Assembly: GCA_031272035.1 (NCBI GenBank)
Contig: JAISUO010000121.1
Location: 1-50,407 of the forward strand
DNA from: Synergistaceae bacterium
GTDB lineage: Bacteria > Synergistota > Synergistia > Synergistales > Aminobacteriaceae
DNA length: 50,407 bases
Reading direction: 5' to 3'
In this document: positions 47,022-50,407 of the stretch, piece after piece
How the letters are laid out: each line of letters opens with the position of its first letter
Position numbering within the stretch: position 1 is the first letter of the stretch
Position numbers and translations under genes: made by a program
The notes under the pieces: model-generated
Database searches by the model: none
The model's input: the letters and a program-made list of their open reading frames with translations, nothing else
What the model was told of the DNA's origin: nothing

Positions 47022-47537
47022 CTAAACCTCCAGATCCTCCGGAAAGGCCTTTTGCAGGGCTTCGACAGCGGCCGAGGCGCTGGGTTCGGCGACGACGCAG
47101 GTGATGTCCAGAGCATTGGAGACGATCATTTCGATGTTCACTCCGGCTTTTGCCAGAGCGGAAAACATTTTCGCGGGAACCTCGGGATTGTCCCCCAGAT
47201 TCCGGCCGCAGACGGACACCCGGGCCACCTCCGTGTTGAAGGAGACCCCCTGAGCTCCCACCTCCGCCGCGACCTTCCGGCAAACGACGATGGCGGCGTC
47301 CAGGCGTTCCTTTCGCACCAGAAAGCCAATGTCCGTCATGCCGCCTCTCATGTTGTTCTGGACGATCATGGCGGCTCCAACCTGCTGCTCCGCCAGCGCG
47401 GAAAAAACCTTCGCGGCCACCCCCGGAACGTCGGGAACACCCAGCAGGACAATACGCGCCGCGGAGTGATCGCTGCGAACGTCCTCCACGACCTTTTCCT
47501 TTGCTGATGGAGAATTCAGCACAATCAAATCCTTCAT
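47022..47537 (-). CDS. Free-standing aspartokinase-type double-ACT protein
   Basis: A 171-residue protein made of two ACT domains like those at the C-terminus of LysC-type aspartokinases. AMIVQNNMRGGMTDIGFLV mirrors the aspartokinase segment IVQN..TDISFTV. PEVPAKMFSALAKAGVNIEMI mirrors the second ACT repeat, which binds lysine or threonine. There is no kinase domain in the frame or just upstream: the gene has its own ATG with AGGAAAGGA, and thrB ends 44 bases before it. It may act as a separate regulatory subunit, like the beta subunit of some aspartokinases, or as an amino-acid sensor; this is inference. It is the third gene of the T-box-led thr operon. Confidence 0.75.
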   Translation of the reverse strand: MKDLIVLNSPSAKEKVVEDVRSDHSAARIVLLGVPDVPGVAAKVFSALAEQQVGAAMIVQNNMRGGMTDIGFLVRKERLDAAIVVCRKVAAEVGAQGVSFNTEVARVSVCGRNLGDNPEVPAKMFSALAKAGVNIEMIVSNALDITCVVAEPSASAAVEALQKAFPEDLEV

Positions 47538-47581
47538 GATTTTTCTGTCCTTTCCTGCATTATCATCATATTTTACTCATT

Positions 47582-48553
47582 TTACATGGCGATCAGGTAA
47601 TCCGATTCCTCTTCTGAAGAAGGGCGCCGGACCGTAAACCGGCAGCCTCCGGCGGAGCCCTGCAGGACGAAGAAACGGGAGGTGACGCCGTACTCCGAGA
47701 AGGTACGGCACAGGGTGGAGGCCACGGAGCCGGGAGCGCCCCGGACGAGGGCGACGATGGTGGGACCGGAGCCGCTGATGGCCACGCCGAAACATCCCGG
47801 CAGCGACCGGACGCGGTCCATAATCACCTCGCCTCCGGGGAAAAGACGGGATCGGTAGGGCTGATGCAGCCGGTCCTCCATTCCCCAGGACAGCAGATCC
47901 CACTGTCCCGTGGCCCAGGCGGCGCTGAGAAGCGCGGCTCTTCCAAGGTTGAATACGGCGTCGCCAAAGGGAACTTCACGGGGCAAACTGTTGCGGGCAT
48001 CGGGGGTCCGAACCTGAACGTCGGGAACAGCGGCGACGACGTGGATGTCTTCCGGCAGCGGAGGAAGTTTGACATGACGCAGATCCATGCCGTCCCAGCA
48101 ACAGACCGTCATTCCACCCAGGTAGCAGGGCACGACGTTGTCCGGATGTCCTTCAATGACCGTCATCACCCGCAGCAGCTCGGACTCCGGAGCATGACGG
48201 CCCGAGATCAGGTTGGCCAGAACGACCCCCGCCACCACCGCCGTGGAGGAACTCCCAAGCCCTCTGCAAAGGGGGATGACGTTGTGACATTCCAGCACAA
48301 AGCCTCGCGGTGAAACGTTCCAGATTTCACAGGCCCGAATATAGCTTCGGATCACCATGTTGCTCCGGGCGCTGGTCAGCTCGCTCTCGCTGAACCCCTC
48401 GCCCACCACGTCGCAGGAAAACAAGCCGCAGGGCTGGAGCTTCATGACGTTGAACACGTTGTAAAGCGACAGCGCCATGCCCAGGGAATCAAAGCCCGCG
48501 CCCAGGTTCGCGCTGGTCGCGGGAACGCGAATGGAAATCAGCGGGCCGTTCAT
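47582..48553 (-). CDS. thrB: Homoserine kinase
   Basis: A 323-residue GHMP kinase that phosphorylates L-homoserine, the step before threonine synthase. The ATP-binding motif PLCRGLGSSSTAV is at 94-106. The N-terminal PATSANLGAGFDSLGMAL and C-terminal GVAISGSGPTIVAL motifs are also present. The length is normal, with a short tail rich in Glu and Ser. Its ATG overlaps the thrC stop by four bases (ATGA), so the two are translated together. Confidence 0.95.
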   Translation of the reverse strand: MNGPLISIRVPATSANLGAGFDSLGMALSLYNVFNVMKLQPCGLFSCDVVGEGFSESELTSARSNMVIRSYIRACEIWNVSPRGFVLECHNVIPLCRGLGSSSTAVVAGVVLANLISGRHAPESELLRVMTVIEGHPDNVVPCYLGGMTVCCWDGMDLRHVKLPPLPEDIHVVAAVPDVQVRTPDARNSLPREVPFGDAVFNLGRAALLSAAWATGQWDLLSWGMEDRLHQPYRSRLFPGGEVIMDRVRSLPGCFGVAISGSGPTIVALVRGAPGSVASTLCRTFSEYGVTSRFFVLQGSAGGCRFTVRRPSSEEESDYLIAM

Positions 48554-49605
48554 CGCGTCAGACTTCCCGGTTTCAGGACCCGCAGGAGCTCGTCGAGGGT
48601 GTCTCCGATCTCCACAGGAGCGGTCACCTGCTTCATTGCCGTATCCGGGTCCTTCAGGCCGTTCCCCGTGAGGACCATGACCACTCGGATGTTTCGGGGA
48701 AGCCGGCCGAGTTCCTTCAGTTTTACGAGGCCGGCCAGAGGAGCGCAGGACGCGGGTTCCGCGAACACTCCCCCCTTTGAGGCCAACAGTCGCTGGGCGC
48801 TGAGAATTTCGTCGTCCGTGACGGAGTTGAATTCTCCTCCAGAGGCGGAAATCGCTTCTCGGGCAAGATCCGCGCTGACGGGATTGCCTATGCGTATGGC
48901 CGTGGCAATCGTTTCAGGGTTCGGGCAGGGCTGTCCCGTGACGAGAGGCGCGGCCCCCGCCGCCTGGAAGCCCATCATGCGCGGCGTTTTCGATATTCTG
49001 CCCAGCCGGCGGTATTCCGTATAACCCGCCCAGCAGGCGCTGACATTGCCCGCGTTGCCCACGGGGATGGCGTGCCAGTCCGGCGCGTCCTTCAGGACTT
49101 CGCAGACCTCCCAGGCCCCCGTGCGCTGTCCGATGAGGCGATAGGGATTGACGGAATTGACGATGGCAAACCCCCGCATCTCGGCCGCTTCCCGGGCAAG
49201 CTCCAGAGCTTTGTCAAAATTTCCCCGCACCGCGATAACCGTGGCTCCGTAGATGAGGGCCTGAGCCAGTTTCCCCAGAGCGACCCTGCCCGCGGGCAGC
49301 AGGACGTAACAGGGAAGCCCGACCGCGGCGGCATAGGCCGCGGCAGAGGCCGACGTGTTTCCTGTGGAGGCGCAGATCAGGGCCCTGGCCCCTGCCTCCA
49401 GAGCTTTGGCCACAGCCAGGACCATACCTCGATCCTTAAAGGAACCGGAAGGATTGCAGCCCTCGAATTTTCCCCACAGTTCGATTTCCAGCCGCTCACC
49501 CACGCGGGGCAGAGGAATCAAAGGCGTGTTTCCTTCTTCGAGGTTCACCGAAGGCGTCGATGCCGTCAGAGGCAACAGAGGCGCGTAACGAGCGAGAATT
49601 CCCAT
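48550..49605 (-). CDS. thrC: Threonine synthase
   Basis: A 351-residue PLP enzyme that converts O-phosphohomoserine to threonine. The PLP lysine is K57 in GSFKDRG. The N-terminal NLEEGNTPLIPLPR, the ASTGNTSASAAAYAA phosphate loop and the late EPASCAPLAGLVKL block are typical of the short, Bacillus-like form. The ATG at 49605 puts the N-terminus at the family position, with GGAAGGG 12 bases upstream; an ATG 42 bases upstream is possible but adds an unusual leader. It is the first gene after the T-box leader. Confidence 0.94.
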   Translation of the reverse strand: MGILARYAPLLPLTASTPSVNLEEGNTPLIPLPRVGERLEIELWGKFEGCNPSGSFKDRGMVLAVAKALEAGARALICASTGNTSASAAAYAAAVGLPCYVLLPAGRVALGKLAQALIYGATVIAVRGNFDKALELAREAAEMRGFAIVNSVNPYRLIGQRTGAWEVCEVLKDAPDWHAIPVGNAGNVSACWAGYTEYRRLGRISKTPRMMGFQAAGAAPLVTGQPCPNPETIATAIRIGNPVSADLAREAISASGGEFNSVTDDEILSAQRLLASKGGVFAEPASCAPLAGLVKLKELGRLPRNIRVVMVLTGNGLKDPDTAMKQVTAPVEIGDTLDELLRVLKPGSLTR

Positions 49606-49625
49606 GCGAAACCCAATCCCTTCCA

Positions 49626-49705
49626 CATTTAAATAAAAACCTGGCATTTAAATAAAAACTCTGCATTATTTAAGCAAAACTTCGCATTTAATTAAAAATA
49701 TAAAT
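49626..49705. repeat. A/T-rich tandem repeat, about 19-21 bp, four degenerate copies
   Basis: CATTTAAATAAAAACCTGG (49626), CATTTAAATAAAAACTCTG (49645), a 21-base variant (49664) and a fourth decayed copy (49685) lie between the T-box terminator and the thrC ribosome site. This places them in the 5' untranslated part of the thr mRNA. Confidence 0.85.
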
Positions 49706-49743
49706 ATTGATAAAATATCGAAAATAACTTGAAAATATGAAGT

Positions 49744-49783
49744 AAAAAAAATCTCGCCCCCATATTTCTCAGGAGACGAGATT
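49744..49783 (-). terminator. Terminator of the T-box leader
   Basis: AATCTCG plus TCTCC pairs with GGGGG plus CGAGATT around a 10-base loop, followed by seven Ts on the minus strand. Upstream bases at the T-box sequence could pair with its left arm, as an antiterminator requires. Confidence 0.85.
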
Positions 49784-50049
49784 CATTCATCCCGCGTTTC
49801 CACTCCAATTCCGTTCTCTGCCTCCGGGTCTGCTCCAACCGGAAAGAACGGCGCCTTGTTATGCGCTGTTCGGGGCGCTCCCCTGCATCTTACCCTTTTG
49901 AAGCCACGCGCCGCAAAAAGCTCGATGCCCGCTCCAGGTCGGTGAGACATGGACGCCCTCCAAGGGGTCTTTCAGCCGGTGAACCCCTCTCTCTGTGGAA
50001 CGCGTATTTCCTGCCCCTTTGTCCCTTCATCGCGTTTCCTGACAAAACG
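49744..50049 (-). promoter_or_regulatory. T-box riboswitch, threonine specific
   Basis: The leader upstream of thrC, read on the minus strand, has the T-box parts in order. GATGAAGGGACAAAGG comes near its start. CAGAGAGAGGGG and GGCTGAAAGACCCC form stem I. TCTCACCGACC follows with a probable ACC threonine specifier (49943-49941), then CCTGGAGC. The T-box sequence GAGTGGAAACGCGG at 49804-49791 comes next, and last a terminator. The UGGA in the T-box fits a U discriminator base, as in many bacterial tRNA-Thr. One base of the conserved ACCGCG differs (AACGCG). Uncharged tRNA-Thr would favour the antiterminator and turn on thrC, thrB and the ACT gene. Confidence 0.85.
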
Positions 50050-50055
50050 ATACCG

Positions 50056-50085
50056 GTTATATCACTCCTCAGGGGAAACTGTCAA
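50056..50085 (-). promoter_or_regulatory. Promoter of the thr operon
   Basis: A perfect TTGACA (50085-50080) and TATAAC (50061-50056) on the minus strand with an 18-base spacer, directly before the T-box leader. Confidence 0.7.
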
Positions 50086-50134
50086 GCCTCGTATGCCTGC
50101 CCGTTATTCGTCTGTGATAATGTCCTCATGCAGC

Positions 50135-50158
50135 CTGACTATCGTGGCGCGGTACGCT
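50135..50158. repeat. About 25-bp direct repeat, copy 1
   Basis: GCCTGACTATCGTGGCGCGG and the next few bases recur at 50348-50371 with two base differences. On the minus strand both copies encode AYRAT(I/V)V, but in different frames relative to the upstream gene. Confidence 0.85.
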
Positions 50159-50161
50159 GGA

Positions 50162-50407
50162 TTATTTGTTTCCGTCAAGTTGCGCCTCCAGTTCGGCAAT
50201 ACGCGCGCGAAGCGTGGTGTTCTCTGCCTCTTTGTCGGCGACAACGCTCTCCCACCTGGCGCGTTCCTGCTGACGGGCGTGTTCGAGTGCCGAGGCTTCA
50301 TTATGACGCGCAAGCGAACGCAAACGTTCCAGTTCTTTGAATTCCGGCCTGACCACCGTGGCGCGGTACGCTTCGACTGCCTGATTCATTTCCGGCACCT
50401 CCAATGC
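50162..50407 (-). CDS. C-terminal end of a probable Rpn-type nuclease/transposase (partial)
   Basis: The frame is open to the window edge, so only about 82 C-terminal residues are seen. It reads NQAVEAYRATVV, then a helical segment (LERLRSLARHNEASALEHARQQERARW) and a coiled coil (TTLRARIAELEAQL) before the stop. This kind of tail occurs in Rpn-family (PD-(D/E)XK) recombination-promoting nucleases/putative transposases; the nuclease domain would be outside the window, so the call is tentative. A repeat of the AYRAT coding segment lies just after the stop in another frame, suggesting a duplication followed by a frameshift. Confidence 0.4.
   Translation of the reverse strand, partial: ALEVPEMNQAVEAYRATVVRPEFKELERLRSLARHNEASALEHARQQERARWESVVADKEAENTTLRARIAELEAQLDGNK
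50348..50371. repeat. About 25-bp direct repeat, copy 2
   Basis: Second copy of the repeat at 50135-50158, inside the partial reading frame at the window edge. Confidence 0.85.

Follow-up and report, generated by a model that had tools for sequence, protein, structure and literature searches.

Introduction

Aspartokinase is a textbook allosteric enzyme whose ACT half is thought to serve its own kinase half, and IlvH and IlvN are small ACT regulatory subunits of acetohydroxyacid synthase, a partnership that is proven. Aspartokinase β-subunits are known (PMC6321352), and CASTOR1, the arginine sensor of mTORC1, is a proposed descendant of an aspartokinase with a lost kinase domain (PMC5020642). 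A T-box riboswitch controls hom1-thrC-thrB in Bacillota (PMC12452182). In Clostridioides difficile thrC lies under a T-box and one T-box also precedes an ACT-domain gene, so T-box and ACT have been seen together before (PMC11477304). Here we describe a threonine operon, headed by a T-box and ending in a gene for a kinase-less aspartokinase regulatory protein (the ACT protein), in a 50,407-nucleotide stretch of DNA from a gut-type bacterium of the order Synergistales. The window, as we call the whole of this stretch, is contig C121 of a genome (G000) of 3.18 Mb in 122 contigs that is 98% complete.

An initial annotation of the window had proposed a promoter, T-box motifs in order and a terminator ahead of tightly spaced thrC, thrB and ACT genes. 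All are found on the minus strand, where the layout is promoter, 271-nt T-box leader, terminator, thrC, thrB and the ACT gene, then ftsH. The thr locus was mapped in about 50 genomes and co-occurrence was counted over 183 genomes of the order; gene-absence calls are based on metagenome-assembled genomes (MAGs), and the relatives named in a GTDB scan are likewise MAGs of Synergistaceae or Synergistales. Genomes, contigs, loci, families and genera carry the prefixes G, C, L, f and g; the family of the source organism is f1.

Origin of the ACT protein

The ACT gene (47022..47537, minus strand) encodes 171 residues forming two ACT domains. Pfam recognises ACT_9, ACT_7 and ACT but no AA_kinase, and neither Pfam nor NCBIfam detects anything of aspartokinase beyond its C-terminal ACT pair, which bears out the kinase-less regulatory protein first annotated here. 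The gene stands alone and is not an internal start within a full aspartokinase gene, the only such gene of the genome being on contig C14. The AlphaFold2 (AF2) model has a pLDDT of 93. In Foldseek aspartokinase regulatory subunits rank first, headed by that of Thermus (PDB code 2zho, TM-score 0.88/0.95), and the matches include the threonine complexes 3s1t and 4go7. The PDxPGxA effector loop and the glutamine of MIxQ vary little or not at all among 23 homologues and are shared with the Thermus enzyme, for which a review gives threonine as the sole inhibitor (PMC10464499).

Six other families of the order (f4, f5, f6, f7, f9 and f10) have a T-box heading a thrC-thrB-lysC-asd operon, in which a complete aspartokinase occupies the slot after thrB. 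The kinase half is absent in f1, f2, f3 and two genomes of f10. The ACT protein shares 49-57% identity with the ACT halves of the operon aspartokinases and about 26% with lysine-type aspartokinases. Intermediates survive as well. In f8, G031 and G040 have a full-length gene (L099:4909-6144, minus strand; L107:5600-6829, plus strand) whose kinase half has lost the motifs KFGGS, TGEQ and GRGGSD and whose ACT half is normal, the mark of a pseudokinase. In G181 an in-frame deletion joins the first 33 or so kinase residues to the ACT half, the gene of its congener G180 being intact. By its sequence, then, the window protein is a remnant of a once complete operon aspartokinase. The initial annotation had called it an orphan in an unusual-looking arrangement; it is not a one-off but one product of a reduction that took place several times.

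Trees of ThrC plus ThrB (52 rows) and of the ACT half alone (42 rows), both unrooted, agree that kinase-bearing and kinase-less forms are polyphyletic; the first needs five changes and the second six, four being forced by starred branches in each case. As read from these sequences, there have been at least four losses of the kinase half, the ACT pair being retained under purifying selection. The grounds for calling the change a loss are the intermediates and the origin of the sequence; the trees, being unrooted, do not give the direction. The window clade has the f4 operons as neighbours and is separated from other f1 genomes, and so either the operon was transferred or there was an old split before this clade lost its own kinase half. 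The thrC-thrB-ACT order of the window recurs in its nearest relative, G022, and in many close relatives. Whether inside an aspartokinase or alone, the ACT half is present in 157 of the 183 genomes. Of the top 80 loci in the GTDB scan, no more than four are without an upstream kinase; all four are from Synergistota, and no kinase-less homologue from elsewhere appears in this set.

Two genera of the same family as the source organism, g13 and g17, are without the 407-residue aspartokinase class and have E. coli-like aspartokinases of 440-480 residues instead. At the g17 loci of G018 and G100 thrC and thrB stand apart from the orphan ACT gene.

Association with homoserine kinase

Two genes of the operon precede the ACT gene. 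On the minus strand, thrC (48550..49605, the start at 49605 assigned by homology) matches threonine synthase TIGR00260 with 283 bits (cut-off 167), and thrB (47582..48553) matches homoserine kinase TIGR00191 with 230 bits (cut-off 168). They overlap by 4 nt, and 44 nt separate thrB from the ACT gene.

What would an orphan regulatory pair regulate? One line of evidence comes from 11 genomes of five genera (loci L074, L091, L225, L078, L080, L226-L229, L085 and L088) in which ThrB and ACT form a single stop-free frame of 482-484 residues, and Pfam finds both domains. Between G059 and G061 the linker has 0, 1 and 11 changes at codon positions 1, 2 and 3 and a ratio of non-synonymous to synonymous substitution (dN/dS) of 0.02. 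Among the compared pairs linker dN/dS is mostly 0.02-0.3, the pair G023-G055 (2/2/2) being too close to inform. Since changes fall mainly at third codon positions in most tested pairs, the linker is translated. An internal methionine preceded by a purine-rich stretch may additionally yield free ACT protein from the fused genes. The AF2 model of a fusion has a mean pLDDT of 58, too poor for domain packing to be read from it. Taken with the repeated retention of the ACT pair, these fusions suggest that the ACT half has been reused to control homoserine kinase.

Co-occurrence points the same way. Over the 183 genomes 148 have both ACT and ThrB, nine ACT only, seven ThrB only and 19 neither, an odds ratio of about 45 that operon linkage inflates. 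The corresponding odds ratio is 5.9 for ACT and homoserine dehydrogenase; for ACT and aspartokinases of this class it is 1.7, and 0.23 within the kinase-less families. All of these counts ignore phylogeny. A third line in favour of ThrB is the persistence of thrC-thrB-ACT in f2 without a detected aspartokinase, together with the reverse pattern in 11 genomes, both described below.

On this evidence we lean, by a little, towards the ACT protein being a repurposed and probably threonine-sensing regulatory subunit of ThrB. The ACT dimer would bind threonine or a related amino acid and act in trans on the product of the adjacent gene, as an allosteric subunit, so that feedback on ThrB activity would be layered over T-box control of transcription. 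The inhibitory sign of the effect is inferred, as are its ligand and, for this genome, its partner. ThrB enzymes elsewhere are reportedly inhibited directly by threonine, going by the title of Petit et al. 2018, a paper cited in PMC10464499. Homoserine kinase would be the first committed step to threonine, and perhaps the very first step where, as here, no homoserine dehydrogenase is detectable. A search for PF00742 found none in this 98%-complete genome despite the presence of thrB and thrC, nor in 15 other genomes of the kinase-less families that have both ACT and ThrB. The idea that the ACT protein mainly regulates homoserine dehydrogenase was considered for the window and rejected on the strength of these negative searches.

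The wider proposal is that, within one order, the ACT half was detached repeatedly and independently to become a threonine-sensing subunit of ThrB, in trans or by fusion. Such a new class of ThrB regulation is a tentative idea to which we give not quite an even chance. If true, feedback control would have left the opening reaction of the pathway for one further along it, in lineages from which homoserine dehydrogenase has often been lost.

Several observations weigh against a ThrB partner. The window encodes ThrB and ACT as separate proteins; the single polypeptide is a feature of the 11 relatives, and these belong for the most part to one lineage, other than that of the window. The inflation noted above reduces what the ACT-ThrB odds ratio can carry. 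The nine ACT-positive genomes without detected ThrB include G080 and the well-assembled G056 (five contigs), where thrC and the ACT gene (locus L230 on contig C2) have no thrB between them, whereas the congeners G007 and G057 keep thrC-thrB-ACT. Conversely, G008, G089 and G112 have ThrB and no ACT. In genus g17, as in several other genera, thrB and the ACT gene are not linked, and the source genome still encodes a separate aspartokinase with which the ACT protein could pair.

Alternative roles

That aspartokinase gives the strongest of the other explanations, one that we consider unlikely yet deserving of serious attention. The ACT protein would be a separate β-subunit of the remaining aspartokinase, which belongs to a lysine operon on C14, and would confer threonine sensitivity in trans as in the α2β2 enzymes of Corynebacterium and Thermus. 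The fold is that of an aspartokinase β-subunit, and a single full aspartokinase is encoded in the genome (C14:13640-14821, beside dapB and dapH). The first ACT domain of this enzyme has lost the PDxPG...Q effector motif and looks unable to hold threonine, so threonine sensing could have moved to the orphan ACT protein. The distribution across the order argues otherwise. In f2 (G025, G034) thrC-thrB-ACT is kept and TIGR00657 finds no aspartokinase or α-subunit; ACT persists too in g13 and g17, whose only aspartokinases have ACT domains of their own; and 11 genomes have lost both ThrB and ACT yet retain aspartokinase. Moreover the fusion partner is ThrB, and the orphan is only about 26% identical to ACT halves of the C14 type.

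The ACT protein might otherwise be a free threonine sensor with another target, be it ThrC, a transporter, or a transcriptional or RNA target. The gene stands at a distance from all thr genes in G006, G024, G058, G005 and genus g17, G056 keeps thrC and ACT without thrB, and several carriers of ACT, the window genome among them, are without homoserine dehydrogenase. Against this, no domain for binding DNA or RNA is recognised in the protein, no other gene is constantly found beside its own, and ThrB is the only fusion partner seen; we regard a free sensor as distinctly unlikely. A decaying, functionless relic would fit the missing kinase half and a dN/dS of 0.19 for the ACT gene relative to G022, about twice the values for thrB and thrC, but is highly improbable. 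As part of an aspartokinase or alone, the domain survives in 157 of the 183 genomes; it has outlasted several independent losses of the kinase, has been relocated intact and has been fused in frame under purifying selection.

The T-box leader

A sigma-70-like promoter, read directly from the sequence (50056..50085, minus strand), has TTGACA at 50085-50080, an 18-nt spacer and TATAAC at 50061-50056, an 11/12 match to consensus. An automated promoter scan missed it only because the scan demands T at position 6 of the -10 box. The sequence TATAACCGG upstream of the T-box is conserved in G022.

The leader (49769..50039, minus strand) matches the covariance model RF00230 over its full length (1-219) with 45.7 bits and E-values of 6.8e-9 in 601 bp and 8.3e-9 genome-wide. 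A scan of the window at Rfam gathering thresholds gives no matches and the T-box appears only with E-value thresholding, since its score is below the RF00230 gathering score of 93. An RsaJ match in the window (12.1 bits against a gathering score of 100) was dismissed as chance. The specifier codon is ACC (49941..49943), at the aligned position that is also ACC in G022, G025, G033 and the leader of the genome's own thrS; threonine agrees with the regulated genes thrC and thrB. Thus the threonine T-box of the initial annotation is upheld by both the covariance model and the specifier. The T-box sequence GGAGUGGAAACGCG (49793..49806) has 11 of 14 positions in common with AGGGUGGNACCGCG, and its UGGA bulge complements the 3′ UCCA of tRNA-Thr, the discriminator being U in all three tRNA-Thr of the genome (UGU, GGU and CGU). 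An intrinsic terminator (49744..49784) has a stem of -19.1 kcal/mol followed by eight U at 49744; the antiterminator segment folds with a minimum free energy of -12.0 kcal/mol. Both use UCUCGUCUCC and they are therefore mutually exclusive. Uncharged tRNA-Thr would stabilise the antiterminator and charged tRNA would let the terminator form, so that transcript level would follow tRNA-Thr charging.

Could this be a degenerating T-box deaf to tRNA-Thr, with only promoter and terminator of consequence? The low score would suit such a state, as would AAACGCG in place of ACCGCG and the missing loop E (AGUA/GAA) beside the specifier. There is no recognisable T-box box upstream of thrC in the relatives G001, G005, G006, G011, G013, G015, G017 and G020; in G001 (L073) and G011 (L080) what is left is a terminator and a remnant of the 3′ half of the antiterminator. 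Loop E is common, not universal, among T-boxes and its absence is not taken as disqualifying; it is present in G025 and G033, and in G022 GAA is likewise missing. The leader has its stems, its specifier and discriminator match are preserved along with the terminator/antiterminator, and G022 keeps the same leader, ACC specifier, AAACGCG variant and three genes despite 11% protein divergence. A deaf leader, which would be compatible with any role for the ACT protein, seems to us improbable. On sequence grounds the leader is a divergent but real, threonine-specific T-box.

Three further T-boxes occur in the genome, all under the Rfam gathering score and each matching its tRNA discriminator base. 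One (L070, C49:40786-41044, minus strand; score 92 against 93) has an ACC specifier upstream of thrS. The other two serve as internal controls. The Trp leader (L071, C58:25820-26073, minus strand), upstream of an ABC transporter with substrate-binding protein, has a UGG specifier and UGGC that pairs with G73 of tRNA-Trp; the Lys leader of dapA-asd (L072, C88:32494-32752, plus strand) has AAA and UGGU for A73 of tRNA-Lys. These add Thr, Lys and Trp T-boxes of Synergistales that the Rfam default cut-off misses.

The initial annotation had coupled the T-box to the ACT sensor. Both are indeed in the window operon, but of the two levels of control the one by the T-box is not conserved. Many close relatives have lost the T-box and retain thrC-thrB-ACT, and others have moved the ACT gene away from thrB, so we regard the coupling as local and the ACT-ThrB link as the conserved part. 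As far as sequences can tell, the recurrent association is that of ACT with ThrB, not of T-box with ACT.

By eye, AT-rich imperfect repeats resembling TTTTTATTTAAATGC lie between terminator and thrC at 49620-49700, and G001 and G020 have other AT-rich repeats at the same place. Beyond the promoter, 50104-50407 (minus strand) holds the end of a coiled-coil-like open reading frame with no Pfam match and a near-duplicate GCGTACCGCGCCACG...GTCAGGC about 210 bp apart.

Comparison with known systems

In the open-licence literature we found no earlier description of repeated ACT detachment within a thr operon, of an ACT-domain fusion to homoserine kinase or of a threonine T-box riboswitch in Synergistetes, although such absence proves little. 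The interest lies in living relatives that display all stages, from the intact enzyme through pseudokinase, in-frame deletion and stand-alone ACT protein to ThrB-ACT fusion. With a regulatory domain apparently passed between enzymes of one operon, partner change of allosteric domains becomes directly testable, and the pattern suggests a possible function for many genes annotated merely as "ACT domain protein".

The thr T-boxes of Bacillota and C. difficile share with this locus a T-box upstream of thrC or thrB, here threonine-specific and with transcription termination. The differences are a single T-box, in Synergistales, with a divergent box and no loop E, the absence of hom and a terminal aspartokinase-ACT gene. 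The aspartokinase β-subunits of Corynebacterium glutamicum, Thermus thermophilus and Mycobacterium tuberculosis (2dtj, 2zho, 3s1t, 4go7) are likewise kinase-less ACT pairs with the effector loop and superpose with TM-scores of 0.82-0.95; the window protein has a separate gene, no α-subunit of its own and a place in an operon with thrC and thrB. IlvH and IlvN resemble it as stand-alone ACT proteins regulating a biosynthetic enzyme in trans, as we propose here, but are not derived from aspartokinase and have a proven partner, whereas the present protein is aspartokinase-derived with ThrB as its putative partner. CASTOR1 is also an ACT-only protein, proposed to be aspartokinase-derived after kinase loss and to have become a free sensor. 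However, it is a vertebrate protein with four ACT domains whose origin was deduced from structural similarity, whereas in Synergistales the intermediates are present in living relatives.

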